Assembly (NCBI GenBank): GCA_021775315.1
Contig: JAJFIC010000066.1
Location: forward strand, 1-64,000
From: Paracoccaceae bacterium
GTDB taxonomy: Bacteria; Pseudomonadota; Alphaproteobacteria; Rhodobacterales; Rhodobacteraceae
Reading direction: 5' to 3'
Length of the DNA stretch: 64,000 bases
The notes below the pieces were generated by a model. That model ran no database searches, was not told the DNA's origin, and was given only the letters and a program-made list of their open reading frames with translations. A program made the translations under genes and the position numbers. Shown here one piece after another: positions 19,291-39,427 of this stretch. The first letter of the stretch is position 1; every line of letters begins with the position of its first letter.

Positions 19291-20256
19291 ATGTCCTGTC
19301 GCGATAAAAAGATCGACGGGGAGTCCGAAAAGCCCCGTCACAATCGCCAAACTAATCACGATGGAATTGTTGCGTCGGGATTTTCGATTCTGGCGCGAAC
19401 CGACTTCTCGGAAAATACCTTTCTTTTGGAAATTCTACACCCGGCTATGGCCAAAGCGGCGCATCCCGGGCAGTTTGTGATCGTGATCTCCAATGATCAC
19501 AGCGAGAGGATCCCGCTAACCATCGCGGATTTTGATAGAGAAAAGGGTAGCGTGACGCTGGTCGTGCAAGCGGTCGGAAAATCCACCAGAGAAATGCAGG
19601 CGCAATGCCAGGCGGGCGGCAAAATGTTCGGTATGGTCGGACCGATGGGGATACCAAGCCACGTTTCGGGGAGCCAAAAAGTAATATGTGTTGGTGGTGG
19701 CCTTGGCGTGGCGCCGATCTTTCCGCAAGCACGCGCATTCAAAGAGGCCGGTGCCTACGTCATCGGCGTTGTCGGTTTCCGCAGCCGCGATCTGATCTTT
19801 TGGGAGGACAAATTCCGATCTGTCTGCGACGAATTCGTGATCTGCACAGATGACGGATCAGCTGGGCTGAAGGGTCTGGTAACGCAGGGGATCGAAAACG
19901 CTATCAAGGCGCATGACGATATCGACGAGGTGGTCGCCATCGGTCCACCGATCATGATGCGTGCCTGCGCCGAGACCACCCGCGCACACAAGATCAAGAC
20001 CACGGTGAGCCTCAATCCAATCATGGTGGATGGCACCGGGATGTGTGGTGGTTGCCGTGTCAAAGTTGGCGGGCGCATCAGGTTCGCCTGTGTTGATGGG
20101 CCGGATTTCGACGGACACGAAGTGGATTTCGACGACCTGATGATGCGGCTGCAACGCTACAAGCCGCAGGAGCAGGAGGCGCTGGAACGCTGGTCAGAAA
20201 ATTGTCGCCGTCTGGCGTTGGAACCTGATGCGGTCATTGAAGACGAGGGAAGCTGA
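19291..20256 (+). CDS. NfnA/SudB-like ferredoxin-NADP+ reductase alpha subunit
   Basis: A 321-residue flavoprotein of the NfnA/SudB type: the small subunit of NADH-dependent reduced ferredoxin:NADP+ oxidoreductase, or of related sulfide dehydrogenases. It has an FAD-binding barrel (RIPLTIADFD near residue 73), an NAD-binding half (CVGGGLGVAPIFP, about 133-145) and a C-terminal [2Fe-2S] site with Asp248, Cys252, Cys255 and Cys267; a three-Cys-one-Asp site is known for NfnA. The ATG at 19291 has GGAGG seven bases upstream; the N-terminus carries about 24 extra polar residues. It is followed after 2 bp by the nfnB-like gene. Confidence 0.88.
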   Translation: MSCRDKKIDGESEKPRHNRQTNHDGIVASGFSILARTDFSENTFLLEILHPAMAKAAHPGQFVIVISNDHSERIPLTIADFDREKGSVTLVVQAVGKSTREMQAQCQAGGKMFGMVGPMGIPSHVSGSQKVICVGGGLGVAPIFPQARAFKEAGAYVIGVVGFRSRDLIFWEDKFRSVCDEFVICTDDGSAGLKGLVTQGIENAIKAHDDIDEVVAIGPPIMMRACAETTRAHKIKTTVSLNPIMVDGTGMCGGCRVKVGGRIRFACVDGPDFDGHEVDFDDLMMRLQRYKPQEQEALERWSENCRRLALEPDAVIEDEGS

Positions 20257-20258
20257 CG

Positions 20259-21761: not shown

Positions 21762-21780
21762 GAATAGCGGAGAAAGAAAA

Positions 21781-23712
21781 ATGACCTCCGATGGCAGACA
21801 GGAATTCGCCGAAAACGCCGAGCTTGGCGACATCCGCGAACTCAAGGGTAAAAAGAGGCCCAAGACCCGACCCGCGATTGTCCTGAACGAACATATTGTC
21901 GAGATTGTCAGCGATTCCGGCGAGGGTGCCCAGCGATGCGGTCAGTCACTGGCGGCAATCGCAGCACGTTCCGGAAACGGGATATGGACGGTCGAAATCA
22001 TTCCCGCCGAGATCCAGCCGCCGCATCGCTCAATTGCTGGCGCCAGTGGCAATCGGGTGCGCATTGCCTCTCAACCTGTCACGAACGGAGGAGATGAGGC
22101 CGACCTTGTGGTTGCCCTGAACGAGCAGGTTCTGCTTAGTCGGCTGCACGCTGGCGAGATAAAACCGGGTGCCATCATCTTGATTGAAAGCATGTGGCAG
22201 TTCGACCCGAACCCGGAAATCGCCACAGCCTATGCCAGCGTCTGCGCCAAGATCAGGGCCGAGGGTTACCGGCTCTATGAAATTCCGATGGAAGCGGAGT
22301 GCCAGAAATATGTGCATGATCCGCGCCGAGGAAAAAACATGTTCGTGTTAGGTATGCTGTGCGCAATTTACAGTTTTGATACTGATATGGCACAGGCACA
22401 AGTGCGGTTTACTTTCGCCAAGAAAGATCAGAAAGTCATCGATGCCAACATCGAGCTGCTTGATGCCGGGCGGAACTGGGCAGACGACAATCTTGACCTG
22501 AAATACGAAATCTCCTCGCATCCGGTGTCAGCCAAGCAGGTGGTAATGAACGGCAACGCGGCCCTTGCCTTAGGTGTTGTCGCCTCAGGCATGGAGGTTT
22601 GTTCAATGTATCCGATCACGCCCGCCACTTCTGCCTCGCATTACCTTAGCGACATCTTCGAGAAAGTCGGATGTGTCGTGCATCAGGCCGAAGACGAAAT
22701 TTCTGCCTGTACCTTTGCAATCGGCGCCTCATACGCAGGCAAATGCGCGGTGACGATAACCTCAGGCCCTGGCTTGTCTCTTAAGCAAGAGGCAATCGGA
22801 TTGGCCGTAATGGCCGAAATCCCGCTGGTCGTGATTAATGTGCAGCGCGGCGGGCCAAGTACGGGATTGCCGACCAAGGTTGAGCAGGGCGACTTGATGG
22901 CGTCTATTTTCGGTGGGCACGGCGACGCGCCGAAAGTGGTGATGGCGGTATCCTCGATTGAGGACTGTTTTTATTCGGCTATCACCGCGCGCAAAATTGC
23001 CGAGACCTTTAATACGGTCGTCATCGTTTTGTCCGATGCAGGCCTGGCCACGGCGCAGCAGCCTTTTGCCAGACCGGTCTTCAACGCAGACTGGCTTGCC
23101 CCCCCGGTCAATCAAAGCGCGGTGCCCGAGGATGCAAAGCCCTACGACTGGGATGAGCGAACAGGGATTGCGACAAGGTTTGTTCCCGGCCAACCGAATG
23201 GGATGCACTGCCTGACCGGTCTTGCACATGATCGCGATAGCCACGTCGCCTATGATCCCGAAATCAACGAGGAAGGTCTGCTGCAACGCAGCCGGAAACT
23301 TGCTGCGTTCCAAACGACGCTGCGGCTGGAACCCGTATATGGCGGCGACGACGGCGATTTGCTTTTGATTGGTTGGGGCAGCACTCGTGGCGCGATAGAA
23401 GAGGCAGTGGCGAATTTGCGGGCGCAAGGTCACAAAGTCTCGTCGCTTCACTTAAAATATCTGCAACCGATGGCTTCTGGGATTGATGCCGTTATGGATC
23501 GTTTCGACAAAGTGATGACCATCGAGAACAACTGGAACGATCCGCCAGACGATCCGCTGATAACCAAGGCCAACCGCCGTTACTCAAGCTTGGCGAACCT
23601 GCTGCGCTCCCGCTGGCTGGTTGATATTGACTGCTGGGGAAAGGCGCGCGGGCAGCCGCTAAAACCGGCCTCGATCATGCAAGCCGCACTTACCAAGCTT
23701 GAAAAACCGTAG
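21781..23712 (+). CDS. korA: 2-oxoacid:ferredoxin oxidoreductase, fused gamma-alpha subunit (KorA-type)
   Basis: The 643-residue subunit joins a gamma domain (about residues 40-210; GEGAQRCGQSLAAIAARSG and the EIQPPHRS region) to an alpha/pyrimidine-binding domain (about 255-600; NGNAALALGVVASGMEVCSM, YPITPATSASHYL, TSGPGLSLKQEAIGLAVM, QRGGPSTGLPTK). This gamma-alpha fusion is typical of KorAB-type enzymes that oxidise 2-oxoglutarate, pyruvate or branched 2-oxoacids with CoA, reducing ferredoxin. About 45 extra N-terminal residues precede the gamma domain. It is followed by korB after 9 bp. The exact oxoacid cannot be told. Confidence 0.9.
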   Translation: MTSDGRQEFAENAELGDIRELKGKKRPKTRPAIVLNEHIVEIVSDSGEGAQRCGQSLAAIAARSGNGIWTVEIIPAEIQPPHRSIAGASGNRVRIASQPVTNGGDEADLVVALNEQVLLSRLHAGEIKPGAIILIESMWQFDPNPEIATAYASVCAKIRAEGYRLYEIPMEAECQKYVHDPRRGKNMFVLGMLCAIYSFDTDMAQAQVRFTFAKKDQKVIDANIELLDAGRNWADDNLDLKYEISSHPVSAKQVVMNGNAALALGVVASGMEVCSMYPITPATSASHYLSDIFEKVGCVVHQAEDEISACTFAIGASYAGKCAVTITSGPGLSLKQEAIGLAVMAEIPLVVINVQRGGPSTGLPTKVEQGDLMASIFGGHGDAPKVVMAVSSIEDCFYSAITARKIAETFNTVVIVLSDAGLATAQQPFARPVFNADWLAPPVNQSAVPEDAKPYDWDERTGIATRFVPGQPNGMHCLTGLAHDRDSHVAYDPEINEEGLLQRSRKLAAFQTTLRLEPVYGGDDGDLLLIGWGSTRGAIEEAVANLRAQGHKVSSLHLKYLQPMASGIDAVMDRFDKVMTIENNWNDPPDDPLITKANRRYSSLANLLRSRWLVDIDCWGKARGQPLKPASIMQAALTKLEKP

Positions 23713-23721
23713 GGGATACCG

Positions 23722-24714
23722 ATGACAGCTCCAATGAGCCAGTGCCTGATGCAAATGGTGCAAACCGACTATGCATTGTCTGACTATCAGAGTGAGATAG
23801 CACCACGCTGGTGCGCAGGCTGCGGTGATAATGCTATCCTGACCGCAATGCAGCGCCTGTGTCGGGATGAACAATTGCCGCCGGAAAAGACCGTCTGCGT
23901 TTCCGGGATCGGCTGTTCGTCACGGCTGCCGCATTACATGAACGCTTATGGGTTTCACGGTGTTCATGGCCGTGCCCTGCCGATTGCGGAAGGTGTCAAG
24001 ATCCGCCGTCCCGACCTGCATGTCTTCGTCACCACCGGTGATGGCGATTGTTGCAGTATCGGTGCCGCGCATTGGCTGCATGCAATCCGCTACAACATGA
24101 ACATGACTGTGCTGTTGCACGACAACCAAATCTATGGCTTGACCAAAAAACAGACGTCACCGACCTCGCCGCACGGGTTAAAAAGCAACACCACGCCGCA
24201 TGGCGCCGTTCTCAATCCGCTCAATCCACTGACGGTTACGCTTGGTGTGGCGAATGTTTCCTTTGTTGCCCAAGCCGTCGACTGGATTCCGGATCTTCTG
24301 TACGAAACTCTTTCCAAGGCCTACCACCACAAGGGTTTGTCCTTCATTCGTATCTTGCAGCGGTGTCCGGAGTTCATGGATCACCGTTTTGACGACTGGG
24401 TCCGGGACCCGTCGAAAATGCGGATCCTCACCCATGCCGACGGCTTGCGCTTAAAGCCCGAGGTTTCGCGCATCTACAAGAACCAAGAAACCCACGACCC
24501 ACGCGATATGGGGCGGGCGTTGGCTATCTCATCGCTTAACGACGAAATTCCGGTCGGCATCCTTTATCGCGATCCATCAGTGCCGTGTTATGACGAATTG
24601 CGCGCCGGTGAACGGCCCAATACGCCAGCGCTGGTTCAGACGGTTCTGAATGAAGAGTTCGACAAAGTTGGAATTTGGCCAGACCCGGCGACGGCGCCGG
24701 AGATCAGGGAGTAG
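23722..24714 (+). CDS. korB: 2-oxoacid:ferredoxin oxidoreductase beta subunit (KorB-type)
   Basis: The 330-residue TPP- and [4Fe-4S]-binding subunit. The cluster ligands appear as WCAGCGD (Cys31, Cys34), GIGCSSR and a late Cys in LQRCPEF; the TPP motif is GDGDCCSIG (about residues 107-115), with the matching N-x-x-Y-G-L-T-K-x-Q-x-S-P-T-S segment. There is no extra ferredoxin domain, so an outside electron carrier is needed; the next gene, 6 bp downstream, ends in a ferredoxin domain. The start MTAPMSQ at 23722 has GGGG upstream. Confidence 0.92.
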   Translation: MTAPMSQCLMQMVQTDYALSDYQSEIAPRWCAGCGDNAILTAMQRLCRDEQLPPEKTVCVSGIGCSSRLPHYMNAYGFHGVHGRALPIAEGVKIRRPDLHVFVTTGDGDCCSIGAAHWLHAIRYNMNMTVLLHDNQIYGLTKKQTSPTSPHGLKSNTTPHGAVLNPLNPLTVTLGVANVSFVAQAVDWIPDLLYETLSKAYHHKGLSFIRILQRCPEFMDHRFDDWVRDPSKMRILTHADGLRLKPEVSRIYKNQETHDPRDMGRALAISSLNDEIPVGILYRDPSVPCYDELRAGERPNTPALVQTVLNEEFDKVGIWPDPATAPEIRE

Positions 24715-24720
24715 TCGACA

Positions 24721-26934
24721 ATGCAACACGCCAAGATTGCCGACGGATTACCTTCCCAGCCAGAGCGGGAGCCTTCTGTTGCCGCCCTGCGTCCAGCGCT
24801 TTTTGCCGGTTATGGTGCTCTTGACGACCTTCGATATGATTACCCGCTGGTGCTTATTGACGGCGGCAGCGGTGAAAATATGTTCCGGCCGCTGAGCCGA
24901 ATTATCGACGATATCCTTCAGGAGACAGCGGCGCCGGATTCGTCCGGCGAGGCGCTGCGTCAGCAGGTTCTGAGGCTTGAGGCGAAAATCCGGCGCAGGG
25001 TAATGCAGTCCGGGCCATGCCAACTTACCGATCTTTGGCGGGACTGCGCCGCTGAATTTATTGCGCAGACTGGCGAAGCACCGTTTGGCCCGCTTGATGT
25101 CAATCTCGACAAGGCGCGGCAGAGCCTTTACGTCGATGGTCTGGTCATCGACTGCGACGATAAAACTCCAGGCCAAGTTCTGGTTCATACTTGGAAAGCG
25201 ATGCATCAAGCCAAGGCCCGCGTGTTTCGCAAAAAGGTTGACGGGCTCACCCTTCGGTTGACGGATATTCTTAAGTCCGACCACATGAAATCCGATGAAG
25301 CGCACGGCGCCGAAGCACTGGCCTCATCGATGGGCTCGTCAGGTGACGGGTCGGTCGATTTTCACGCTTTGTCGGCTGTACTGGCGCGCGCCAGACCAGA
25401 AGACCGCCTGCCCCAAGACCGGGTGGAACGGATCCAAAATGTATTGCGTGTTCTGCAGTCGCAACTTTTCTATGGCCCTGGGCGCGCCTCCAAAAGCGGG
25501 CCTAAGCAGCCCAAACCATACAGCTACACGTTCGAAAGTTGCGCGTCCGCGCTTGACGCAAATCGTGATCGCCTTCGGGATGTGCTTGATTTCACCAAGG
25601 CTCTGACGGTCGCCGAACTGGAGGTTGAAAACAAGTATCGGCCCGAGCTTCATGATCCGATCTTTGAGCGTTTTGACGAAAGCGATCTGACGGCAGATCA
25701 GATCGGGTTGCTGCCCTCAGCGCTGGTTTGCCTGCGCGATGGCGAGACCGATGCGACAGAGATTGCTCGCGCGTTTGAGGCACTGGCCTGCGGGCTGCAA
25801 ATCACGGTCCTAATCCAAACCGATGACATTCTGGGTGCGACTTCGCCCGAACCGCCGCGAAATTCCTTTGGTGCCGGCACGACCCGGATTGCGGCGATGG
25901 CCATGGGCCTCAACAACGGTTTCGTTTTGCAGTCATCCAGCGCTCATCTTTATCGTATGCGCGACAATCTGGTTCGCGGAATGCAATATGACGGGCCGAC
26001 TTTGATCAGCATCTATTCGGGCGCAACGGTGACGGCGCCGGGCGTGCCGGCCTACATACTTTCAGCGGCAGCCACGGAATCGCGGATTTTCCCTGCTTTC
26101 ACCTACGATCCATCCGCCGGCCCGGATTGGGCGCATCGGTTCGACTTGTCAAACAACCCGCAGAACACTGTCGACTGGCCGGAGCATGAGCTAGAGTTTG
26201 AAGACGTGAAAGGTCAACGGCAATCCGAGAAGATCGCGTTCACTTTCGCTGATTTTGCGATTAGCGACGTACGATACGGTCGGTTTTGCCATTCCCTTGC
26301 GCAGGCGGACTGGACGCCGGGAATGGAACCGGCTGCCGACTGGTTGAAACTGCCGCCCGAGACCAACAGCAATCAGAAACCTTATGTTTTCGGCATCGAT
26401 TCCGAAAACCGGTTGCGTCGTACAGTTGTCGACGACAAGATTATTGAGGCTGCCCGCCGCTGCAATGACGCATGGTGCCGGTTGCAGGAACTGGCTGGTA
26501 TCAATAATTCCCATGCTTTGCGTCTGCTGGCACAGGACCGGCTGGAACGCGAAGTGGCTGCGCGAGCGGCTGAGAACACGCAATCTACATTGTCAGGCCC
26601 ACCCTCCGTCGCCGCGCAGTTAGCGAAAGTGGCAGAGGATGCCGCACCGCCCGTCGTCACGGATGTCGCGACTGACGAACAAACCGAAGACACGCCGTGG
26701 ATCGAAACCGCGCGTTGCACGACCTGCAACGAATGTACCCAGATCAACAGCGAACTGTTTGCCTATGACGAAAATATGCAAGCCTACGTTGTGAATCCCG
26801 ACGGCGGTACATATCGCCAGATCGTCGAGGCGGCGGAAAGCTGTCAGGTCAGCATCATCCATCCGGGACAACCACGCAATCCGCAGGAGCCAAACCTTGT
26901 CGATCTGATCGAACGCGCCAAGTCGTTTCACTGA
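24721..26934 (+). CDS. 737-residue PFOR-like protein with C-terminal [4Fe-4S] ferredoxin domain, function unknown
   Basis: I do not recognise a characterised family for the whole protein. Residues about 1-330 are helical and unassigned. Residues about 345-490 resemble the part of pyruvate:ferredoxin oxidoreductase after its TPP motif: VLIQTDDILGAT where PFOR has an LDTEVYSNTGGQ-like strand, AMGLNNGFVLQ, YDGPTLISIYSG and FTYDPSAGPDW. No GDG TPP motif was found, so catalysis by itself is unlikely. The C-terminus is a single-cluster ferredoxin: Cys666, 669, 672 and 708 in CTTCNEC and ESCQVSIIHPG. It is the last gene of the nfnAB-korAB operon, 6 bp after korB, with GGGAG before its start. A role as a ferredoxin or scaffold subunit of the oxidoreductase is inferred. 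Confidence 0.6.
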   Translation: MQHAKIADGLPSQPEREPSVAALRPALFAGYGALDDLRYDYPLVLIDGGSGENMFRPLSRIIDDILQETAAPDSSGEALRQQVLRLEAKIRRRVMQSGPCQLTDLWRDCAAEFIAQTGEAPFGPLDVNLDKARQSLYVDGLVIDCDDKTPGQVLVHTWKAMHQAKARVFRKKVDGLTLRLTDILKSDHMKSDEAHGAEALASSMGSSGDGSVDFHALSAVLARARPEDRLPQDRVERIQNVLRVLQSQLFYGPGRASKSGPKQPKPYSYTFESCASALDANRDRLRDVLDFTKALTVAELEVENKYRPELHDPIFERFDESDLTADQIGLLPSALVCLRDGETDATEIARAFEALACGLQITVLIQTDDILGATSPEPPRNSFGAGTTRIAAMAMGLNNGFVLQSSSAHLYRMRDNLVRGMQYDGPTLISIYSGATVTAPGVPAYILSAAATESRIFPAFTYDPSAGPDWAHRFDLSNNPQNTVDWPEHELEFEDVKGQRQSEKIAFTFADFAISDVRYGRFCHSLAQADWTPGMEPAADWLKLPPETNSNQKPYVFGIDSENRLRRTVVDDKIIEAARRCNDAWCRLQELAGINNSHALRLLAQDRLEREVAARAAENTQSTLSGPPSVAAQLAKVAEDAAPPVVTDVATDEQTEDTPWIETARCTTCNECTQINSELFAYDENMQAYVVNPDGGTYRQIVEAAESCQVSIIHPGQPRNPQEPNLVDLIERAKSFH

Positions 26935-27413
26935 CGGCCAAAGCCGGGGGTGACCGGGATAGCGTTTATTGATACTGTCAATGGCCATACCACTTGAACC
27001 CGCGGCGGGTATTCGCTATCGAAACCATTCTTCTAGGCCATGACGCCGCTTGGTTTTGTTCCGTGCAATTTCTGCCACATTGAAGGAAACCGAGACCGGT
27101 TCGCATCTTCCCGCAAAGCGTCAATTGCGCAACCTACTTCCCCGGAAAGACGTGTCACTATCCCTCAGGCTGGCCATCAGCAAGAACAACTTCACACCAT
27201 CTGAAGTCTGCTTTGGGGCGCCTCAAGCCAACCAAATTGAATTGAGTGGAATGGATCAAGCGCCAATCGCTTGAAACCGGAAGCTTGCAAAATTTCAAAC
27301 TTACCTCATTATATGACCACGCGAAGGGGACGAAACCTCTGATACATCAGGACGTTTTTGGACCCAATTACTCCGCCCACGGATAGGGAAGGTAACGAAA
27401 GATTTAATTTCAC
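26935..27413. other. Non-coding stretch before the Crp/Fnr gene
   Basis: About 480 bases with no supported gene. It should hold the end of the nfnAB-korAB transcript and the promoter of the regulator. A near-palindrome TTGATACTGTCAA (26969-26981) has a five-base rather than six-base gap between TTGA and TCAA and is not accepted as an FNR site. Confidence 0.45.
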
Positions 27414-28142
27414 GTGGTAAAAGACAAACCGCCCGAGCACCCTTCAAAGATTCCCTGCCAAAAGGCGCGTTATCGCACCGAGACAGAGTGGGGGGCTTTA
27501 ACGCGAGACGAGATTAATCTGTTTGATCGCGATGTTGTCTGCAAAACATATTGCTCTGGCGAGACTATCTTTGTGGAAGGGGACGCCTGTAAAGGACTAT
27601 ATTTCGTTGAACATGGGTTGGTTGCGGTCCGCAAAACCGAGATTAATGGGCAATCGACAATCGTCCGCCTTGCCTATCAGGGCGACACTTTAGGCTATCG
27701 ACCGTTATTGGCTAAGGAGAACCATCGGGCCACTGCCGAGGTGATCAACGATACGCATATCTGTTTTATCAACGCCAAGACGATGCGTCACTTTCTACGT
27801 TCCAATCCCAAACTGGGTATGCGTTTTTTGGAACATACCGCATTGGCCCTTGGTCAGGCCGAAGAACGAATGTTTCAGATTGCAGCATTGAGTGTGCGAA
27901 CACGCATCATTCACTTGGTCGTATTGCTGCGAGACCACTACGGCACGATCACCAGCGATGGAACTTTATTTGTTGATTTGCCGATGTCACAGCGCGACAT
28001 GGCAGACATGATTGGCGCAAGACCCGAGTCGGTATCGCGCGCCCTTCGAGACATTCAGGATGATGGTCTAATACACCTGTCCGGTCACACCGTACGCGTT
28101 GATCGAGTGGATCGTCTTGTCGAAGAACTTCACCACCACTGA
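27414..28142 (+). CDS. Crp/Fnr-family transcription regulator lacking the canonical Fnr cysteine cluster
   Basis: A 242-residue regulator with an N-terminal cyclic-nucleotide-binding fold (SGETIFVEGDACKGLYFVEHG) and a C-terminal winged helix-turn-helix. The recognition helix reads RPESVSRALRDIQ, with the E-x-x-S-R arrangement that reads TTGAT-type half sites. True Fnr proteins have a compact Cys cluster near the N-terminus; here Cys15 stands alone in IPCQKARYRTETEWGAL, and further Cys are at 43, 47 and 59. A classical oxygen-sensing [4Fe-4S] cluster is therefore doubtful. The start is GTG at 27414 with no later good choice. Placed between two anaerobic operons, it is the likely regulator of the FNR-type sites nearby. 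Confidence 0.85.
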   Translation: MVKDKPPEHPSKIPCQKARYRTETEWGALTRDEINLFDRDVVCKTYCSGETIFVEGDACKGLYFVEHGLVAVRKTEINGQSTIVRLAYQGDTLGYRPLLAKENHRATAEVINDTHICFINAKTMRHFLRSNPKLGMRFLEHTALALGQAEERMFQIAALSVRTRIIHLVVLLRDHYGTITSDGTLFVDLPMSQRDMADMIGARPESVSRALRDIQDDGLIHLSGHTVRVDRVDRLVEELHHH

Positions 28143-28314
28143 ACTGCGGCAATACCACCTGCGTTAAGCCCCAAATCAAAGCCAAACCAATCCAATTGAA
28201 TTCACTTATCCGCCCAAGCGCGTTTGGCAAATCAAACGCAGCTTCGGGCTGGAAGATGAAGACACTAATCTGGTCGGATTGGGTTCGCATTCATCGGCAA
28301 ACCCTACGTCAAAT

Positions 28315-28449: not shown

Positions 28450-29199
28450 ATGGAAGTGACACAGAAAACCATTTCTCGCAGAAGCTTAATCGGGAACATT
28501 GGAAAAGGAGCTACGCTGGCCGTTGCTGCCACTGCGCTCCCTAGTCCGGTGAAAGCGGCTGTCGATCAGAAATCGGTGCATTATGCGATGGTCATCGACG
28601 CGCGTAAATGCACCGGGTGCCATGCTTGCTCTGTTGCTTGCAAGGCTGAATTTGAAGTCCCTCTGGGCGTTCACCGATCTTGGGTGGAATATGTTGAAAA
28701 GGGCACATACCCCAACGTATCCAGAAGCTTTTTGCCACGCCTGTGCAATCAGTGTTCGGAGCCGGATTGTGTGTCCGTTTGTCCCACGGGGGCAACGTAC
28801 AAGAGGGAGGAAGACGGCATTGTTGTTGTCGATTCTGATCTTTGTATCGGGTGTAAGTACTGCATGCAGGCTTGCCCCTACGATGTGCGGTTTATTAATC
28901 CCAATACCGGCACAGTAGAAAAATGTGATTTCTGCTTGCATCGGGTGACCCAGGGGCTTGAACCTTCTTGCGTAAACACCTGCCAAGGCAGAGCAAGAAT
29001 TTTTGGTGATCTCAATGACCCGACCAGCGAGGTTGCAAAACTTGTCGCAACAGAACCGGTAACAGTTCTTAGGCAAGAAATGGGAACAAAACCGAACGTC
29101 TTTTATATCGGCGCAGATCATTCGGACGAAAGCGATCTTAGGGTTCCCGGACAATATGTCCGTGTTGATACCCATCGTCCAATTCAGGAACGGAGGTAA
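28450..29199 (+). CDS. Psr/Phs/Ttr-type four-cluster ferredoxin subunit with Tat signal
   Basis: The electron-transfer subunit of a periplasmic molybdoenzyme complex. From the start at 28450 (AAGGGG seven bases before it) the protein has about 249 residues. A Tat-type signal (ISRRSLIGNIGKGATLAVAA) is followed by four [4Fe-4S] motifs: CTGCHACSVACK, CNQCSEPDCVSVCP, CIGCKYCMQACP and CDFCLHRVTQGLEPSCVNTC. This matches PsrB, PhsB, TtrB and related subunits. A frame from 28360 adds 30 residues that weaken the signal peptide. The NrfD-like gene follows after 5 bp. Confidence 0.88.
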   Translation: MEVTQKTISRRSLIGNIGKGATLAVAATALPSPVKAAVDQKSVHYAMVIDARKCTGCHACSVACKAEFEVPLGVHRSWVEYVEKGTYPNVSRSFLPRLCNQCSEPDCVSVCPTGATYKREEDGIVVVDSDLCIGCKYCMQACPYDVRFINPNTGTVEKCDFCLHRVTQGLEPSCVNTCQGRARIFGDLNDPTSEVAKLVATEPVTVLRQEMGTKPNVFYIGADHSDESDLRVPGQYVRVDTHRPIQERR

Positions 29200-29204
29200 A
29201 GGCC

Positions 29205-30200
29205 ATGCTAGATCTAAATTGGGGACTCCCTGTCATCGGGTACTTGTTTTTGGCAGGTGTTGGCGCCGGTGCATTCACCGTAAGTTCCTCCGTACTCTTG
29301 CGAGGCGGAGGTTTCTCAAGCGACCACTTTTCTGTCGCACGTTATGGGGCGTTATTGGCGCCCATTCCAATGATGGTTGGAACCGGTTTGATAATCTTGG
29401 AACTAGGAACGTTCCAGGCAGCCATAGCAAATGGCGATATCGGTTTGTTCTTCCGCTGGATCAACCTGTTCCTGACCATTAACATGTCACCGATGAGCAT
29501 CGGGTCATGGGTTCTGGGACTGTGTATCCTTGTCAGCTTAATCTATGCCTATACATTTCTTTCAAAAGAAAGTGCGCCTGATGACGACAAGAAGGGTTTG
29601 CGTCAAGCGCTAGCATGGGTTGGTATACCACTTGGTATATCTGTCGCGATCTATACTGGTGTCATGTTAGGAGCCACGCCAGCACGGCCATTCTGGAATT
29701 CGCCGGTATTGGCGCTCCTCTTCCTGATTTCGGCATTATCGACCGGGGTTGCTGGAATATTGCTGCTGCGCGCATTGTTTGGTGGGCATAATCCTTCCCA
29801 AAAAATGGGCACACAGAGCGAGTCCGCCAATGCACCCAATCGGGCCACATATCTGCTGGCATCTTCTGATAGCTTGCTGATCGGCGCGGAAATTCTGACT
29901 GTTTTCCTGTTCATCATGTTTGCCCATCTGACAATTGGCAATCCGGCACAAGCCGTGTCGATCATCCTTCCTGGCGGAGAGCTGGCAACCTTGTTCTGGG
30001 TTGGTGTGGTCGCTGTTGGCTTGGTAATTCCGGTTCTGATTGAACTTCGATATGTGATTCCGACACTGCTTTATCGTCAGCCATATGCAATGCCACGCGG
30101 TGTTGAGATGGCGGTATGCGTGGTTATCCTGATTGGCGGATTCATGTTGCGTTACGTTGTGGTTGTCGCCGGCCAGTTGACCGGACCAATGGGAATATAA
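29205..30200 (+). CDS. NrfD/PsrC-family quinone-interacting membrane subunit
   Basis: A 331-residue polytopic membrane protein of the NrfD/PsrC family, which anchors the complex and exchanges electrons with quinones. It has about nine or ten hydrophobic helices, beginning with GLPVIGYLFLAGVGAGAFTV, as in other NrfD proteins, and includes the conserved NMSPMSIGSWVLGL region. There are no heme or iron-sulfur motifs, as expected. The ATG at 29205 has GGAGG before it. Given rquA nearby, both ubiquinol and rhodoquinol are possible partners (inference). Confidence 0.87.
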   Translation: MLDLNWGLPVIGYLFLAGVGAGAFTVSSSVLLRGGGFSSDHFSVARYGALLAPIPMMVGTGLIILELGTFQAAIANGDIGLFFRWINLFLTINMSPMSIGSWVLGLCILVSLIYAYTFLSKESAPDDDKKGLRQALAWVGIPLGISVAIYTGVMLGATPARPFWNSPVLALLFLISALSTGVAGILLLRALFGGHNPSQKMGTQSESANAPNRATYLLASSDSLLIGAEILTVFLFIMFAHLTIGNPAQAVSIILPGGELATLFWVGVVAVGLVIPVLIELRYVIPTLLYRQPYAMPRGVEMAVCVVILIGGFMLRYVVVVAGQLTGPMGI

Positions 30201-30210
30201 GGAGACGATT

Positions 30211-32745
30211 ATGTTAAACCGACGAAATATTCTACAAATGGGAGCCGCCGTACCACTCGCTGCATTGACTGGAGAGGCTCTGACACCGCGTGTCTCCGCA
30301 GGGCCGGTTATCGGTGGCAAAGATTTCTCACCAACAACCGGTAAGGAACGGCAAGCCATCCCCAGCGCCTGCTGGCAGTGCGTGACCCGTTGTCCCTCTA
30401 TTTCCTACGTGGAAGACGGACGGTTGGTAAAAATCGAAGGCCAACCAAAATCGATACGGACCCATGGCGTCATGTGCGCGAAGGGGCAAGGCGGTGTCGG
30501 TCAGTTCTCTGACCCGGATCGCATCCTGCACCCGATGCGTCGGGTTGGCAAACGCGGCGAAGGCAAGTGGAAAAGGATCAGCTGGGACGAAGCCCTGGAC
30601 GAGATTTCCGGGCGCATGAAGAAACTGCGTGACGAGGGAACACCCGAGAAATTCTGTTTTCACTACGGACGCATGAAGGCCAGTCACTCCAAGCTCATCA
30701 AGAGCGTATTCCTTGCCACTTATGGTACCGGGACTATCGGCAACCACACTTCTATTTGCGAGGGGGCTAAATGGACGGCTCAGGAAATGACCTGGGGCGG
30801 GCATTATGATAACTGGGATGTCGATCACACCAACTATGTCCTGAATTTCGGCTCAAACGTGTTTGAAGCTCATACAAACCACATACCAGTGGCGCACAGG
30901 TTGATTGCACGGTTAAGCGAGAAGAATATTCACATGGTGACCTTCGACGTCCGATTGTCGAACACGGCTGCCAAATCGTCAGAATGGGTGCCGATAAAAC
31001 CGGGAACTGATCGCGCCGTTGTTCTTGCCATGTGCAATGTGGTGATGAGCGAAGATCTCTATAAAGGCGAAGGCGAGGAATTCCTGAAATTCGTCAAAGT
31101 GACTGCCGGACGCAGCGCTACCGTCGATGAAAAAATCGCCGCCCTAAAAGCGCATCTTGCCGAGTTTACGCCAGAGTGGGCGGAGGGAATTAGCGGCGTA
31201 TCCGCCGATAAAATCCGCGAGATCGCTCGTGAAGTGGCAACAAACAAGCCGGCCTGTATCATCAGTTACCGGGGGGCTGTGGCCCACCACCATGGGGCTG
31301 ACACCGAACGGGCCGTGCAAATGCTGGCTTCGATCACCGGTAATATTGATAATCCAGGCGGCAGATGCAAAGCCGTCGGGGCGAGTTGGAAATACCCGAA
31401 AGGGCCAAAAGACAAACCCAAATCCCGCAAGCTGAAGATATTGGATGGCCTCAAAGGTGCTGCGAAGATGCCGACCCATCATGTCAGCCATCAAGTGCTG
31501 AAGATGATCAAGGATGGCAGTGCTGGTCGCCCGGATATTTACATGTGGTATTGCTACACACCAGTATATGCCAACGGCGAAGTCCAGGAAAACATCGACA
31601 TCCTCAAGGACGAAGAACTGATACCGTTCAGTGTCTGCGTCAACCCGTTCTATGACGAGTCCGCGGCGCTGGCCGATATCATCCTGCCCGACACACCCTA
31701 TACAGAACGTTGGGGCACGGAAGACATGGTATCACCGGCGCAAATACCGGAATACTACATTCGCCAACCAGCAGTGAAGCCGCTGGGAGAATGCCGCGAT
31801 TTTGCTGATGTTTGCATCGATCTTGCAGACAGGATGGGTTTCCCGCTCGGGATTAAGAGTCACGAGGAATTTGTTATGCAGGCCTGCGAGATGACCCCGA
31901 CGGTAAAAGCTGCTGGCGGTTTTGAATATATGAAGGCCAACGGGGTTTATCACGACCCTGAGGCAAAGCCCCGGTTCTATTCATATATGAACATCATCAA
32001 ACCTGAAAAATATGAGAAAGATGGTGTCGTCTTGGACCCGGATACCGGTGTCTATTGGGACTGGAAGAAAGCTCATGTCGCCAGCGAAGAAGAAGCTTTG
32101 GCGAAGGGTTACACACACACCAAGAAATCCTACAAGGCCTATATCGGCCAAGAGATTGATGGTGTGGTGTATTCGGGCTTCAAACCTGACAAGCTCAATA
32201 AATCGGGCTATATGGAGCTCTATTCCGAAATCGTCGAAGCCCATGATCTTTCAGCCATGCCTTCGTGGACTCCTGCACCCGAACACGTCGCTATGAAGCC
32301 GGATGATCTGATCTTGACCACCTACAAGGTTGCCACTCAGATTCACTCACGCTCCGCCAACTGCAAATATCTGACCGAGATTTATCATGACAATCCGGCC
32401 TGGATTAATCCGGCAACGGCGGCTGAGAGAGGCATCACCGAAGGCAATACGATAACGGTCAATTCGGAGTTTGGAGAAATCAAAACCACCGTCAGGGTAA
32501 CCCCGGCGGTCGTACCAGGGACCATTGCAATTGCCCACCATTGCGGACATTGGGAATACGGTCGCTATGCTTCCGGGAAAAACAGCCCGGAAGGCCAACC
32601 CAGTCCCAAAGCTGAAAAAATCTGGTGGACAACCCACGGCATGCATCCGAATTGGATTATCGGTACCAAGGCAGACCCGATATCTGGCCAGATGCGCTGG
32701 ATGGATACAGTGGTACAGGTAGAAAAGGCCATGGCTGATGCTTGA
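30211..32745 (+). CDS. Molybdopterin oxidoreductase catalytic subunit (Psr/Phs/Ttr/Arr/Srr group), substrate unknown
   Basis: An 844-residue bis-MGD molybdoenzyme. A Tat signal (NRRNILQMGAAVPLAAL) leads it to the periplasm. A [4Fe-4S] site is formed by Cys54, Cys57, Cys61 and Cys89, and the probable Mo ligand is Cys183 in GNHTSICEGAKW, as in the polysulfide/thiosulfate/arsenate reductase group. The C-terminal molybdopterin-binding part includes IHSRSANCKYLTEIYHDNPAW. The order of genes (Fe-S, NrfD, catalytic) and the TorD-like chaperone fit a complex iron-sulfur molybdoenzyme that reduces an outside acceptor such as polysulfide, tetrathionate, arsenate or selenate, or that oxidises a donor. 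I cannot choose among these from the sequence alone. Confidence 0.85.
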   Translation: MLNRRNILQMGAAVPLAALTGEALTPRVSAGPVIGGKDFSPTTGKERQAIPSACWQCVTRCPSISYVEDGRLVKIEGQPKSIRTHGVMCAKGQGGVGQFSDPDRILHPMRRVGKRGEGKWKRISWDEALDEISGRMKKLRDEGTPEKFCFHYGRMKASHSKLIKSVFLATYGTGTIGNHTSICEGAKWTAQEMTWGGHYDNWDVDHTNYVLNFGSNVFEAHTNHIPVAHRLIARLSEKNIHMVTFDVRLSNTAAKSSEWVPIKPGTDRAVVLAMCNVVMSEDLYKGEGEEFLKFVKVTAGRSATVDEKIAALKAHLAEFTPEWAEGISGVSADKIREIAREVATNKPACIISYRGAVAHHHGADTERAVQMLASITGNIDNPGGRCKAVGASWKYPKGPKDKPKSRKLKILDGLKGAAKMPTHHVSHQVLKMIKDGSAGRPDIYMWYCYTPVYANGEVQENIDILKDEELIPFSVCVNPFYDESAALADIILPDTPYTERWGTEDMVSPAQIPEYYIRQPAVKPLGECRDFADVCIDLADRMGFPLGIKSHEEFVMQACEMTPTVKAAGGFEYMKANGVYHDPEAKPRFYSYMNIIKPEKYEKDGVVLDPDTGVYWDWKKAHVASEEEALAKGYTHTKKSYKAYIGQEIDGVVYSGFKPDKLNKSGYMELYSEIVEAHDLSAMPSWTPAPEHVAMKPDDLILTTYKVATQIHSRSANCKYLTEIYHDNPAWINPATAAERGITEGNTITVNSEFGEIKTTVRVTPAVVPGTIAIAHHCGHWEYGRYASGKNSPEGQPSPKAEKIWWTTHGMHPNWIIGTKADPISGQMRWMDTVVQVEKAMADA

Positions 32746-33475
32746 AACCAAGGCCATCATACATCATGATGAATTGGCCAAGAAGGCCATAGAGCAAAGT
32801 CGGCTCTATGGCCTGTTGGCGACTGTTTTTCGTCGGGAGCCGTCGACCGAGTTTTTGTGCCATCTGAGAACGCCGGAATTGATCGTGGCTCTCACAGGTG
32901 TTGGGATTGATTTTGGCAAGGAATTTGGAACCAGAACATTTGCCGATATTGCCGATGAATTGGCGATTGAATATACCCGCCTGTTTTTGGGACCCGGGAA
33001 ACATATTTCACCCCATGAATCGGTACAACTGAAACGTGGCAGTGGCATTTTGTGGGGCCCTGAGACCTCGGCAGTCCAGCAATCCTATCGCGCTGCCGGA
33101 TTTGAAATTGGCGAAGGCGAGACTGATATTCCCGATCACCTCAGTGTTGAACTGGACTTTCTATCGCTTCTGACCAAGGAAGAATCACAGTGTTGGACAA
33201 ATCGGGATCATGAACAAACAGCCAGAATCCTGAATCTTCAACGCGCCTTTATTTCTGGTCACCTCGGCAAATGGGTCGCAATATTTTGCACCAAGGTAAA
33301 GGAAGAAGCCGAATTTGGTTTTTATCCGGCATTTGCCGGTCTCTTGCTAAGCTATTTATCCGGCGAGAAGATGGAAATCGGAATTCGGGCAAGTCTTGTC
33401 GGTCGGCCGGAACAAAATGGCGCAAATGGCCCTGACACCACATATGGGACGGAGGATTCTGCGCGCAGGGCGTAA
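32738..33475 (+). CDS. TorD/DmsD-type molybdoenzyme chaperone
   Basis: A 245-residue all-helical cytosolic chaperone that would hold the molybdoenzyme until cofactor loading and Tat export. Family motifs are visible: EYTRLFLGPGKHISPHESV and PDHLSVELDFLSLL. Its first eight bases overlap the end of the catalytic gene, so translation is coupled, as is common for dedicated redox-enzyme maturation proteins. The C-terminal tail after residue 215 is not conserved. Confidence 0.87.
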   Translation: MLETKAIIHHDELAKKAIEQSRLYGLLATVFRREPSTEFLCHLRTPELIVALTGVGIDFGKEFGTRTFADIADELAIEYTRLFLGPGKHISPHESVQLKRGSGILWGPETSAVQQSYRAAGFEIGEGETDIPDHLSVELDFLSLLTKEESQCWTNRDHEQTARILNLQRAFISGHLGKWVAIFCTKVKEEAEFGFYPAFAGLLLSYLSGEKMEIGIRASLVGRPEQNGANGPDTTYGTEDSARRA

Positions 33476-33659
33476 GTTGGCCTCGCTTATACTGCTCTGC
33501 GTAAGGCGAGCCGAGAATGGAGGTGGTCGTCTGATTAGATGGATTGGTTCCGATTTCATCCGCACACAGGACGCACTTGCGGTGAACCGAAATAGACATT
33601 CGCGCTGAGGGCGTGATAGTCTTCAAAACATGGTTGAAGCGAGCGGAGCCTGCAATATC

Positions 33660-34148
33660 ATGCCCAGACATGAAGCCCAATGTACGCTTTATTACACTTC
33701 AGAACAGCTTTTTGATCTTGCTGCAGACGTCGAGCGTTATCCGGATTTTCTGCCGTGGTGCGTTGCTGCCAGAGTGAGTAGAAGAGAAGGCAATACCTAT
33801 TACTCAGATCAAATCTTTGGTTTTGGCTTGTTCCGCGAGCGTTTTATTTCAAAAACTGTTCTTCAGCGACCGGCACGGATTGTTGTGACCTCGACCAGCA
33901 AAATTTTTCGAAAATTCGAACTCACCTGGCTGTTTGACACGCTGCCTGAAAATGGATGTCGGGTCGCCATTCGGGCTGATCTTGAACTGCAATCAAAGCT
34001 TGTTCAGGATATTTTCCACCGGAGTATCGCTCAAATGGTCGGATCAATCATGTCTGCTTTTGAATCCCGCGCCCACAAGCTCTACAGCCATTCTGCGATC
34101 CCACGTCCGGCGCCAGGAACAGAAAACTCAAACGATTTCACTGGCTGA
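33660..34148 (+). CDS. Coq10/START-type polyketide-cyclase-like protein, possible quinone binder
   Basis: A 162-residue protein of the Coq10/RatA START family, recognisable by LFDLAADVERYPDFLPWC, TSTSKIFRKFELTWLFD and SIAQMVGSIMSAFESRAHKLY. Coq10 proteins bind ubiquinone and are needed for its efficient use in respiration. The start MPRHEAQCTLYY at 33660 has GGAG upstream and opens the domain directly. It sits between the molybdoenzyme operon and rquA-frdABCD, so a link to rhodoquinone delivery is attractive but unproven; it may also just be a second RatA-like copy. Confidence 0.8.
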   Translation: MPRHEAQCTLYYTSEQLFDLAADVERYPDFLPWCVAARVSRREGNTYYSDQIFGFGLFRERFISKTVLQRPARIVVTSTSKIFRKFELTWLFDTLPENGCRVAIRADLELQSKLVQDIFHRSIAQMVGSIMSAFESRAHKLYSHSAIPRPAPGTENSNDFTG

Positions 34149-34192: not shown

Positions 34193-34234
34193 TTGACTTG
34201 GATCATTCCTGGCGCTGATCTTTCAAATTAGTAT
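34193..34234 (+). promoter_or_regulatory. FNR-type operator and possible -10 box upstream of rquA
   Basis: TTGACTTGGATCAT (34193-34206) matches TTGAT-N4-ATCAA at eight of ten positions. A TAGTAT hexamer (34229-34234) starts 23 bases after the site, which is exactly where a -10 box should be if the site is centred at -41.5. This would place the transcription start near 34241, with a leader of about 96 bases before rquA. An inverted repeat CCAAT-N7-ATTGG lies in that leader (34258-34274). Confidence 0.6.
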
Positions 34235-34336
34235 CGGTATATCATTGAGTTATATTGCCAATCATTAAAATTGGTTCAGACGGTGCAAACAAGTGGCTAT
34301 CCAAAGTCGCCGGACTGGTGTTGGAGGAAATCAAGA

Positions 34337-35149
34337 ATGAATTCTATGCAAAAACCGGCCGGGCGGCAGCGTGTGGACGACGATAACCAAACGGCAGCAC
34401 AAGGGACATATGTGGAAAGTTTGGTTGTTGCCGACTGCGCCGAACAAGCAAACGCGCAACGTTTCTTATCGAACGGTAACAATTTTGACCCGACAATTCC
34501 CGCCTATTTGAGGGATACCTATACTTGGGCTTATCTACGACCAAGTTCCGTGAAATTGCTCGACCGATCGCTCGTCGTGAATACAATTCTGTGGGGGAAT
34601 TACCGCCGATTACTGCGCGCGGCGCTGTCTGAATTGCGCCCCGGCCAAAATGTTTATCAACCAGCGTGTGTCTACGGTGATTTTTCTCATAGCGTCGTCG
34701 AATTCTTGGGGCCAGATGGCCATCTCGATGTCGGCGATGTTGCCCCCGTGCAAGTTGAGAACTGCCGACGCAAGTTGACCGGTTGCAGCAACGCGCGTGT
34801 CCAATTGCACGATGCGGCGGTCAAACTCCATGAAGTCTACGACGCAGTGTGCTGCTTTTTTCTGCTGCACGAGGTGCCGGATCCTTACAAATACCGGATT
34901 GTCGATACTTTATTGGATGCAGTGGAACCGGGCGGCAAAGTTGTGTTCGTTGACTATCATGGTCCGCACAGGTTCCACCCGCTGAAATGGATTATGAGCT
35001 TTGTCGATGATACGCTGGAACCGTTTGCCAAGGCGCTATGGGACAACGAGATTTCCAGCTACAGCAGCCGGAAAGAAGAATTCACTTGGACAAAGCAGAC
35101 CTATTTCGGCGGGTTGTACCAGAAAGTCGTCGCGGAGAGGCGGACATGA
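34337..35149 (+). CDS. rquA: Rhodoquinone biosynthesis protein RquA
   Basis: RquA converts ubiquinone to rhodoquinone; it has a methyltransferase-like fold but is reported to transfer an amino group from S-adenosylmethionine. The 270-residue protein shows the family's conserved blocks: [58 protein letters not shown], and [16 protein letters not shown] followed by [13 protein letters not shown]. The ATG at 34337 has GGAGG nine bases before it; an ATG at 34346 is an alternative. Its stop overlaps the frdA start by four bases (ATGA), so rhodoquinone synthesis and fumarate reductase are made together. Confidence 0.92.
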
Positions 35150-36903
35150 ATATCATCAAAACGGATGTTCTCATTATCGGCGCTGGCGGCGCAGGCCTGA
35201 GGGCCGCGATTGCAATCGCTGAATTGGACCCGAGCATCCAAGTCGCGTTGATCTCCAAAGTCTACCCCATGCGCAGCCACACAGTTGCCGCCGAAGGCGG
35301 TGCTGCCGGAGTGGCCCGCGAAGACGACAGCTTTGAAAACCATTTTAACGATACCGTCACCGGCGGCGACTGGATGAGCGATCAGGATGCGGTCGAGTTC
35401 TTTGTTCATGAAGCCCCAAAAGAACTAACCCAGATGGAGCATTGGGGCTGCCCATGGAGCCGCAAACCCGACGGTCACATCGCGGTGCGGCCGTTTGGTG
35501 GCATGAAAGTCGAACGCACATGGTATGCCGCTGACAAGACCGGCTTTCACATGCTGCACACGCTGTTTCAGACCTCGTTGAAATTCCCGTCCATCCAAAG
35601 ATTTGACGAGTACTATTCGACCGATCTTATCGTCGTGGATGGGTGCTGCCGTGGGGCCACCGCGATCGAGATGCGAAGCGGGCAGATGCATACGTTCAGC
35701 GCGAGGGCGGTCATTATTGCCACCGGCGGTGCCGGGCGTATTTTCCCGTTCACAACCAATGGCGCAATCAAGACCGGTGACGGCATGGCAATGGCCTATC
35801 GCGCCGGGGTGGCCCTGAAGGACATGGAATTCATCCAGTACCACCCGACCGGCCTGCCCGGTACCGGCATCCTGATTACCGAAGGATCACGCGGCGAAGG
35901 CGGGCTTCTGGTCAACAAAGACGGCTACCGGTATTTGCAGGACTACGACCTTGGGCCTCCGGACCCGTCGCCGCGCAATAAGGCCATGGAACTTGGCCCA
36001 CGCGATCGTCTTAGTCAGGCGTTCTGGCACGAACAGAAAAAAGGCCGCACCATCAAGACGCCGCATGGCGATGTGGTTCACCTTGATCTGCGCCATCTGG
36101 GCGAGAAGAAGATCAATGAACGCCTGCCGATGGTGCGTGAATTGGCCACTGCTTATGTCGGCGTCGATCCGGTTTACGAACCGATCCCGGTACGCCCGGT
36201 GATCCACTACACCATGGGTGGCATCGATACCGATATCAATGCGGCCACCAGCATCGATGGATTGTTCGCGGCGGGCGAATGTGCATGCGTCAGCATCAAC
36301 GGTGCCAATCGTCTGGGATCAAATTCGCTGACCGAAATTCTGGTCTTCGGCGCCCGCGCCGGACAAAGCGCCGTACAGATACTGGCGGCGGATTCACCGC
36401 AGGTTGACGAGGCCGCAATCCACGAACAGGCCAACGCGGCGAAAGCCCGGATTGCTGACCTATTCCTGGCCAGTGGCGGCGGCGAAACCGTGTCGGGCCT
36501 GCGCCGCGAAATGAACGACACAATGGAAAGCGGCGCCGGCATTTACCGCACCGACGCCTCGCTGCGCGAAAGCAGCGCCGTGATCAAAGATATCCGCCGC
36601 CGGTTTGCCGATATCGAACTGCAAGACAAAAGCAACGTCTACAACACAGATCTGATACAGGTTCTGGAACTGGGGGCGATGATCGACGTGGCGCAGGCGC
36701 TTATCATTTCGGCCCTGGAACGAAAAGAATCGCGCGGCTCGCACCAGCGTTTGGATTTCACAGAACGCGACGATAAATCCTATCTCAGACACTCGCTGGC
36801 GAGTTTTGTCAAAGGCGGCGATCCCGAAATATCCTATCGGGACGTGACCATCACCCGCTCGCAACCCGGAGAGCGGGTCTATGGCGGAGGTGAGCAGAAA
36901 TGA
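35146..36903 (+). CDS. frdA: Fumarate reductase flavoprotein subunit
   Basis: The catalytic FAD subunit of fumarate reductase (585 residues, close to E. coli FrdA). It has the FAD-binding GAGGAG (residues 12-17), His45 in [10 protein letters not shown] as the covalent FAD site, and the substrate region [20 protein letters not shown]. The E. coli-like FrdABCD set and the rquA coupling argue for fumarate reduction rather than succinate oxidation, though the enzyme is reversible in principle. The start at 35146 is set by the overlap with rquA; an upstream frame from 35038 lies inside rquA. Confidence 0.94.
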
Positions 36904-37643
36904 GCAATCGCATCGTTGAACTTGAAATCCTGCGCTACAATCCCGAAACAGATGAAGAGCCCAAGTTTCAGACCTTTAGCGTACCTTGCGCCGAGGACTG
37001 GGTGGTGCTTGACGCCATCAACTACATCAAGGACGAACTTGACCGCACGCTCAGCTATCGCTGGTCGTGCCACATGGCGGTCTGCGGCAGTTGCGGCATG
37101 ATGATCAACGGTGAACCGATGCTGTCGTGCAAATCCTTCCTGCGCGATCTGCCGGACAGAATACGTGTCGAGCCGCTGACAAACTTTCCGATCGAGCGCG
37201 ATCTGGTCGTCGTCATGGACGATTTTATGGACAAACTCGATAGCGTTAAACCGTTTCTCATCCCGCGCGAAGAAAAGACGGTTGATGAAGGCGAGTTCCT
37301 GCAGACACCGGCCCAGCTCAGCAAGTTCAAGCAATACACGCTGTGTATCAACTGCACGCTGTGCTATGCGGCCTGCCCGCAATACGCCCACAACGAAGGC
37401 TTTGTCGGCCCCGCAGCCTTGGCGCTGGCGCACCGCTATAACCTTGATTCCCGTGATGTCGGGCGGTCGGCCCGCGCCGACGTTGTCGCCAGCAACGCCG
37501 GTATCTGGGAATGCAGTTTCGTCGGAGCCTGTTCCGAGGTTTGCCCACATGGGGTCGATCCGGCCGCCGCTATCCAGCAGACCAAGATCGCCAGCTCCGT
37601 TGATTATTTCAGAGACATGTTGATACCGGGGAGACGCTCATGA
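36900..37643 (+). CDS. frdB: Fumarate reductase iron-sulfur subunit
   Basis: A 247-residue subunit with the three clusters that link FAD to the quinone site: [2Fe-2S] in [14 protein letters not shown] with a later Cys in MLSCK, [4Fe-4S] in [12 protein letters not shown], and [3Fe-4S] in [17 protein letters not shown]. Sequence and length match E. coli FrdB. The start overlaps the frdA stop by four bases and its end overlaps frdC by four, so all are coupled. Confidence 0.95.
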
Positions 37644-38029
37644 GCCGCAGACCATATATTCGACCGGTTTCCAAGGTCTCTTGGTGGCTGTCACAGCCCC
37701 GATATATCCGTTATATGGCCCGCGAGGCCAGTTGCATATTCATCGGCGCCTACAGCGGTGTGCTGGTCGTCGGGCTGATACGACTGTCGCAGGGCGCTGC
37801 CGCTTGGGGTGCTTTCCTTGAAACGCTGCAATCGCCTGTCAGCATCGCGTTCCACCTGTTTGCCCTGGCATTTGCACTGTATCACACGACCACCTGGTTC
37901 AATGTCACGCCCAAGGCGATGCCGTTGCAGTTCGGCCAGACACCGGTGCCGGGAGGGGCGATCATTGGCGCCCATTACCTTGGCTGGATTTTGGTGTCCG
38001 GGCTGATCCTATTTCTTGTCGGAGTGTAG
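37640..38029 (+). CDS. frdC: Fumarate reductase membrane anchor subunit C
   Basis: A 129-residue membrane protein with three hydrophobic helices and the FrdC-type opening RRPYIRPVSKVSWWLSQPRY, followed by YMAREASCIFIGAYSGVL. No heme-ligating His pair typical of SdhC is evident, in keeping with the heme-free E. coli FrdCD type. It should form part of the quinone pocket, here presumably for rhodoquinol. It is translationally coupled to frdB. Confidence 0.9.
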   Translation: MSRRPYIRPVSKVSWWLSQPRYIRYMAREASCIFIGAYSGVLVVGLIRLSQGAAAWGAFLETLQSPVSIAFHLFALAFALYHTTTWFNVTPKAMPLQFGQTPVPGGAIIGAHYLGWILVSGLILFLVGV

Positions 38030-39300: not shown

Positions 39301-39427
39301 TTCTACTTCTGCACGGTTTCTTTTTGAACCTTCCCGCCAACGGGGATAGGCTGAAGCCATAAAAGCGTCAGCGGTTGTTTCCGGGGCAGCGGAATTGGTT
39401 TTGGCTCGGGCCGCTTGCGATCACATA

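Follow-up and report, generated by a model that had tools for sequence, protein, structure and literature searches.

Surveys of environmental arsenic respiration depend on models for arrA, arxA and aioA, and unnamed Cys-type branches near these molybdoenzyme families were described by Wells et al. in 2023 (PMC10100899). Sensor genes are variable in known arx clusters (PMC6549141), and a cold-seep survey recorded arrA in Desulfobacterota and Nitrospirota, where it could overlap with the lineage described here (PMC10060404). We analysed a stretch of 64,000 nucleotides from a Paracoccaceae bacterium (contig JAJFIC010000066.1, assembly GCA_021775315.1; hereafter the window), in which four genes at 28450-33475 encode a molybdoenzyme complex that fits no characterised family in the models and tree panel used here. 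Judged from sequence and context, this module may be a periplasmic, membrane-anchored arsenic-oxyanion oxidoreductase, and here most likely a terminal arsenate reductase, a reading to which we give about an even chance. That arsenic is the substrate, whichever way the reaction runs, is probable; if it is, reduction is most likely the direction and is clearly favoured over oxidation.

The module is present and intact, with its four open reading frames (ORFs) on the + strand and with intergenic gaps of about 10 bases at most or overlaps (Table 1). An earlier note on this DNA had described a full respiratory complex of catalytic subunit A, Fe-S subunit B, NrfD anchor C and TorD-type chaperone D, and such a complex iron-sulfur molybdoenzyme module is borne out by the ORFs and their Pfam and NCBIfam domains. 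The predicted export of A and B by the twin-arginine translocation (Tat) pathway agrees with twin-arginine signals at both N-termini (RRNILQMG in A; in B the signal SRRSLIGN... is obtained from the ATG at 28450, the ORF list beginning at 28360). Subunit A combines Fe4S4, Molybdopterin and Molydop_binding domains, and Cys183, named in the same note as the likely Mo ligand, does not vary across the 34 aligned members and falls in the column of the Mo-ligating Cys in ArrA, ArxA and PsrA. Given these frames and domains and the existence of 54-84% identical homologues, the module is not a chance product. PADLOC returned no match.

Assignment to a known family by curated model failed, as every NCBIfam equivalog scored was far below its cut-off: subunit A reached 340.7 of 694 bits for PhsA (NF012032), 310 of 778 for DmsA, 187.8 of 1600 for ArrA (NF041714) and 116 of 1750 for TtrA (NF011567). 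The absence of PsrA, PhsA, TtrA and ArrA features stressed earlier thus holds for the models tested. Among solved structures, Thermus polysulfide reductase and Shewanella ArrA are nearest in sequence; plasmid homologues were considered as close named relatives and set aside, the best match being 38% identical. A maximum-likelihood tree of 35 rows was built with a panel lacking SrrA, SrdA, AnrA and MolyA, in which one ArrA-like reference row was drawn from the family model at 1109 bits, below cut-off, and the TtrA rows were likewise below cut-off. The window protein and its homologues form a 100/100 clade that joins an Azoarcus KH32C type and a haloarchaeal/Thermomicrobium type at 100/100. ArrA and ArxA group by themselves at 100/100, with the window enzyme outside, the PsrA+PhsA clade (100/98) is separate, and the two TtrA-like rows stand apart. 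In the approximately unbiased (AU) test, neither joining the lineage to ArrA/ArxA (p 0.24) nor to PsrA/PhsA (p 0.11) was rejected. Placement inside one characterised clade, the outcome that would have undone the earlier view, did not occur in this panel, and in the tree the enzyme belongs to a well-supported lineage separate from ArrA/ArxA, PsrA/PhsA and TtrA, with a deep branching order that is weakly supported. In the literature searched, we found no paper describing this lineage or linking it to arsenic.

The predicted structure of subunit A (mean predicted local distance difference test score 86.8) matches ArrA best, with Z 40.1 and a root-mean-square deviation of 2.5 over 696 residues, followed by NapA (35.9) and PsrA (35.0). 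Residues R154, H179, C183, K187 and R354 are invariant in 34 homologues. Arg154, His179 and Cys183 align with Arg165, His189 and Cys193 of ArrA, and Lys187 lies one position off Lys198; in ArrA, Arg165 and His189 belong to the arsenate pocket and the Cys is the Mo ligand. The C-terminal GHWEYGRYAS is conserved in subunit A, and its general form GHWxYGRYAS is common with ArrA.

Clustering of all ORFs around the homologues (80 loci, 29 with full flanks) revealed a recurrent set of a periplasmic binding protein (X), a histidine kinase and a sigma-54 response regulator, together abbreviated XSR. Among Protein Data Bank entries, X is closest to AioX, with E 1e-60 to 1e-63, followed by ArrX with E 1e-38 to 1e-43; both matches are far better than those to the phosphonate/phosphite-binding PhnD/PtxB, at about E 1e-14. 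An AioX-type sensor or ars genes occur in 27 of the 80 loci and in 18 of the 29 with full flanks; XSR genes account for 25 of the 80, and ACR3, ArsA, ArsD or ArsC flank the subunit A gene in five. The arsenite pocket of AioX comprises Tyr88, Cys106, Tyr131, Ser161, Ser163, His192 and Asp210 (PMC5908839), and nearly all X copies carry it as YCYSSHD or YCYSTHD (Thr for Ser163), the exceptions being one copy that differs and two with Glu for Asp. Strong sigma-54 sites, such as TGGCACGGCAATTGCT in locus L091, lie 5' of the operon in 10/24 loci with the sensor versus 3/45 without it (Fisher p 8e-4); such a promoter matches the sigma-54 regulator of the sensor set, and its enrichment links sensor and enzyme. 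The sensor was also considered as a constant companion of the enzyme, which failed in other classes.

A comparable association was observed within the Rhodobacteraceae. Across 394 genomes the X-type sensor is present in 32, 27 of which have AioA; all four carriers of the enzyme possess the sensor (p 4e-5), and three of the five genomes with X and without AioA carry the enzyme, versus 1/389 others (p 4e-6). In the window's own genome, another contig (C107; L108:1297-10549) encodes ArsR, an MIP aquaporin, a PatB-like protein, ArsD and ArsA, followed on the other strand by genes for a sigma-54 regulator, a kinase and an AioX-type sensor; aioBA is absent there. The genome's seven molybdopterin proteins, as read from their sequences, are NuoG, formate dehydrogenase, NarG, a BisC/TorA-like protein, the window enzyme, a SoeA-like protein and a PadB-like protein. 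No ArrA or ArxA is among these seven, and no AioA was detected in the genome, the hits of the AioA model being mainly the formate dehydrogenase, with a score far under the cut-off.

Several observations weigh against the arsenic reading. The window itself contains no sensor or ars gene, a Crp-type regulator standing upstream instead, and a motif scan found no significant sigma-54 site in it. Outside the Rhodobacteraceae the sensor is present in only 1/7 genomes with the close type, and with sister types included in 2/9 genomes versus 2/71 controls (p 0.06); of the four Rhodobacteraceae carriers, two hold a sister type of 40% identity. The X of this genome is similar to the copies adjoining aioA in relatives, and in a genome of the same genus (G169) the sensor is by aioA, so that X here may be left over from an aio locus that was lost. 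Subunit A is about 30% identical to each of ArrA, ArxA and PhsA, and a firm union of the lineage with ArrA/ArxA, although compatible with the AU test, was dropped for want of tree support. In addition, R154, H179, C183 and R354 are present in SoeA as well, and the pocket residues therefore support the substrate without proving it. Lastly, the homologues in Desulfobacterota are similar to a cluster for which a role in sulfur disproportionation has been proposed. Even so, arsenic is favoured by the sensor and ars genes together with the sigma-54 promoters, the phyletic pattern and the fold. The earlier note left the substrate unassigned among sulfur, selenium and arsenic; the respiratory module that it described is borne out and falls in no characterised clade of the panel used, but the substrate need not stay open, as context and fold point to arsenic.

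In the proposed mechanism, TorD would mature subunit A ahead of Tat export, and rhodoquinol made by RquA, or ubiquinol, would be oxidised at the NrfD anchor. Electrons would then pass through the B-subunit clusters and the N-terminal 4Fe-4S cluster to the Cys183-ligated Mo-bis(pyranopterin guanine dinucleotide) of A, where arsenate would be reduced to arsenite in the periplasm. With a potential of -63 mV (PMC11707229), rhodoquinone is a better donor than ubiquinone and suits arsenate reduction.

The alternative that survives best keeps enzyme and substrate and reverses the direction, giving an arsenite oxidase like Arx, with ubiquinone as electron acceptor and coupling to nitrate or oxygen, and we consider it unlikely, though by no means negligible. 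In its favour, the sensors found with the lineage are of the AioX kind, and arsenite is the ligand of both AioX and ArxX (PMC5908839); within the Rhodobacteraceae the enzyme is found mostly where AioA is absent, as if it were a replacement, and NarG is encoded in the genome. Set against this are the anaerobic neighbourhood with rquA and frdABC and the many homologues in sulfate-reducing lineages that have no suitable acceptor, and reduction is favoured because the neighbouring genes are anaerobic and arsenite oxidation is not a plausible partner of sulfate reduction in the Desulfobacterales homologues. Arx has been reported to work both ways in vitro (PMC6620896), and direction is not readable from sequence.

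A sulfur-compound reductase acting on polysulfide, thiosulfate or elemental sulfur, in the manner of PsrA/PhsA or of the enzymes of MOLY clusters, for which sulfur disproportionation has been proposed, is rather improbable. The lineage stands apart from PsrA/PhsA in the tree, its fold is closer to ArrA, and arsenic sensors and ars genes recur nearby, even though PhsA gives the top NCBIfam score (at half its cut-off), Thermus Psr is the best solved relative by sequence, and homologues are plentiful in Desulfobacterota and Nitrospirota, where MolyA occurs (PMC12998232). Moreover, MOLY clusters, compared by their published description, are reported to lack a membrane anchor (PMC12998232), whereas the window module has NrfD. 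Least likely of all is a reductase of another oxyanion (antimonate, selenite/selenate or thioarsenate) with incidental arsenic sensing, for although the superfamily switches between oxyanions of As, Se, Sb and S (PMC7331816, PMC10100899), a panel including antimonite, selenate, thiosulfate and tetrathionate gave arsenite as the sole ligand of AioX and ArxX, and ArrX accepted nothing but arsenate and, weakly, phosphate (PMC5908839); the X proteins of related loci retain the AioX-family Cys106.

The lineage is far from confined to this genome. One scan of named genome contigs yielded at least 80 with a 54-84% identical subunit A, nearly all full length, from Rhodospirillales, Rhodobacterales, Gammaproteobacteria, Magnetococcales, Desulfobacterota, Nitrospirota, Nitrospinota, Planctomycetota (Brocadiaceae) and one betaproteobacterium. 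Sources include Black Sea and Arabian Sea metagenome-assembled genomes (MAGs), sediments, groundwater and symbionts. The enzyme is no Roseobacter peculiarity either, being rare in Rhodobacteraceae (4/394 genomes at E 1e-100, two of them with the sister type) and widespread in other anaerobes. A 10-11-haem cytochrome gene (about 518 aa) lies directly 5' of the B and A genes in six of the loci and in others, which belong to Desulfobacterota, Nitrospirota and several gammaproteobacteria and often also hold an 8-haem cytochrome; this arrangement suggests a different electron route in these loci.

Downstream of the module, the window encodes genes of quinone metabolism and fumarate reduction (Table 1). 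The link to rhodoquinone genes proposed in the earlier note is partly sustained: rquA and frdABC do lie beside the module, but the association is local, since rquA adjoins the enzyme operon only in the window and in a Methyloligella MAG locus (L032), the sole second case, where a Crp-type gene also stands beside the homologous operon. For the Coq10/RatA-like protein, a role in quinone binding or handling is possible and would fit.

Upstream, homologues of the Crp-type regulator were located by tblastn 5' of the equivalent operon in seven alphaproteobacterial loci, L032 among them. The regulator and its homologues have Cys15, Cys43 and Cys58 in common, mostly Cys116 too, and are without the FNR N-terminal pattern; the protein is possibly a three-cysteine metalloid or Fe-S sensor. 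By eye, the similar sequences CCAACCAAATTGAATTGAG (about 27229-27250) and CCAATCCAATTGAATTCAC (about 28185-28205) precede the Crp-type gene and the Fe-S subunit gene and are a possible candidate for a shared operator. Farther 5' are ferredoxin-linked 2-oxoacid oxidoreductase and NfnAB-like genes. An FNR-like box, TTGATCTGGGTCAA (19174-19187), precedes the segment at 19291-26934 with an NfnAB-like pair, a 2-oxoacid:ferredoxin oxidoreductase pair and a 737-aa protein, the last having a C-terminal ferredoxin domain and no other family match. As a window-wide signal, FNR boxes were discarded, being barely above chance (40 found versus 28.6 expected; 4 of 100 shuffles equally high), and those near promoters serve as leads only. 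Elsewhere in the window, an aconitase X gene lies at 42536-44071, and a 672-aa EF-G-like protein at 39395-41413 is possibly a second, divergent EF-G.

Table 1. Coordinates of the module and of neighbouring features in the window.
Feature	Position	Strand	Evidence
Crp/Fnr-family regulator immediately 5' of the operon	27414..28142	+	Pfam cNMP_binding and HTH_Crp_2
Tat-exported 4Fe-4S electron-transfer subunit (B)	28450..29199	+	Fer4_11; NCBIfam TtrB/DsrO/NrfC-like
NrfD/PsrC-type membrane anchor, quinone side (C)	29205..30200	+	PF03916, E 3e-38
Catalytic molybdopterin subunit (A), 844 aa, Tat signal, Mo-ligand Cys183 (likely)	30211..32745	+	
TorD-family chaperone (D), 8 bp overlap with A	32738..33475	+	PF02613, E 1e-23
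Coq10/RatA-like START-domain protein, between chaperone and rquA	33630..34148	+	PF03364; NCBIfam RatA family below cut-off
FNR-like box TTGACTTGGATCAT 5' of rquA	34193..34206	+	2 mismatches; alone not above chance
rquA, rhodoquinone biosynthesis; real start probably within the ORF	34271..35149	+	NF038261, 311.7 bits (cut-off 175)
frdA, quinol:fumarate reductase flavoprotein, 4 bp overlap with rquA	35146..36903	+	NF006686, 976 bits (cut-off 854)
frdB	36900..37643	+	NF009051, 379 bits (cut-off 333)
frdC	37640..38029	+	PF02300, E 5e-40

On a wider scale, the enzymes could add to ArrA/ArxA and AioA a third lineage of respiratory arsenic-oxyanion oxidoreductases, widespread, missed by current arsenic gene models and rhodoquinol-driven here, a proposal that we put forward tentatively and with somewhat more doubt than belief. 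The lineage may be overlooked in surveys, since the curated ArrA and AioA models stay below cut-off on the enzyme, and if it handles arsenic, arsenic respiration would be more widely distributed than estimated. The locus would then present the first rhodoquinone-linked arsenate respiration, tying rhodoquinone to an acceptor other than fumarate, and the lineage would take part in the cycling of arsenic in oxygen-poor marine waters and in sediments. Cultured carriers are Sedimenticola hydrogenitrophicus SB48, Aromatoleum toluclasticum MF63 and Jhaorihella thermophila DSM 23413.

Compared with the known systems, the window module would work most like ArrABC, yet it is no member of ArrA/ArxA by model or tree. 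ArrAB(CD) of Shewanella ANA-3 (PDB 6cz7) shares with it the Tat-exported A, the Cys-ligated Mo, the B subunit, the chaperone and, in many members, an NrfD-type anchor, and ArrA shares the fold, the GHWxYGRYAS motif and the Arg165/His189/Cys193 positions; the window protein differs in its 29-30% identity, its score with the ArrA model, its place outside the ArrA/ArxA clade and its gene order B-C-A-D. The ArxB2ABCD systems with ArxXSR (Cereibacter ORIO, Sulfuricella skB26) resemble the lineage in having XSR and ars genes beside related operons, an NrfD anchor and a chaperone, whereas the window shows about 30% identity, a separate clade, a different order and no visible ArxB2 gene. PsrABC/PhsABC have the same subunit types and Cys ligand and include the best single NCBIfam match, but PsrA/PhsA, at about 30% identity and in a separate clade, are without the Arg154-type and GHWxYGR features. 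The MOLY cluster of Desulfobacterota (MolyA, MolyB, TorD) likewise has A, B and TorD genes in anaerobes and is reported without a membrane anchor. In the Azoarcus sp. KH32C plasmid pAZKH, an operon of the same order (B-NrfD-A-TorD) and the same supported group of lineages, for which we found no characterisation, differs as a sister lineage of 39-40% identity, and it lies with X, kinase, sigma-54 regulator and ars genes within an arsenic resistance island.

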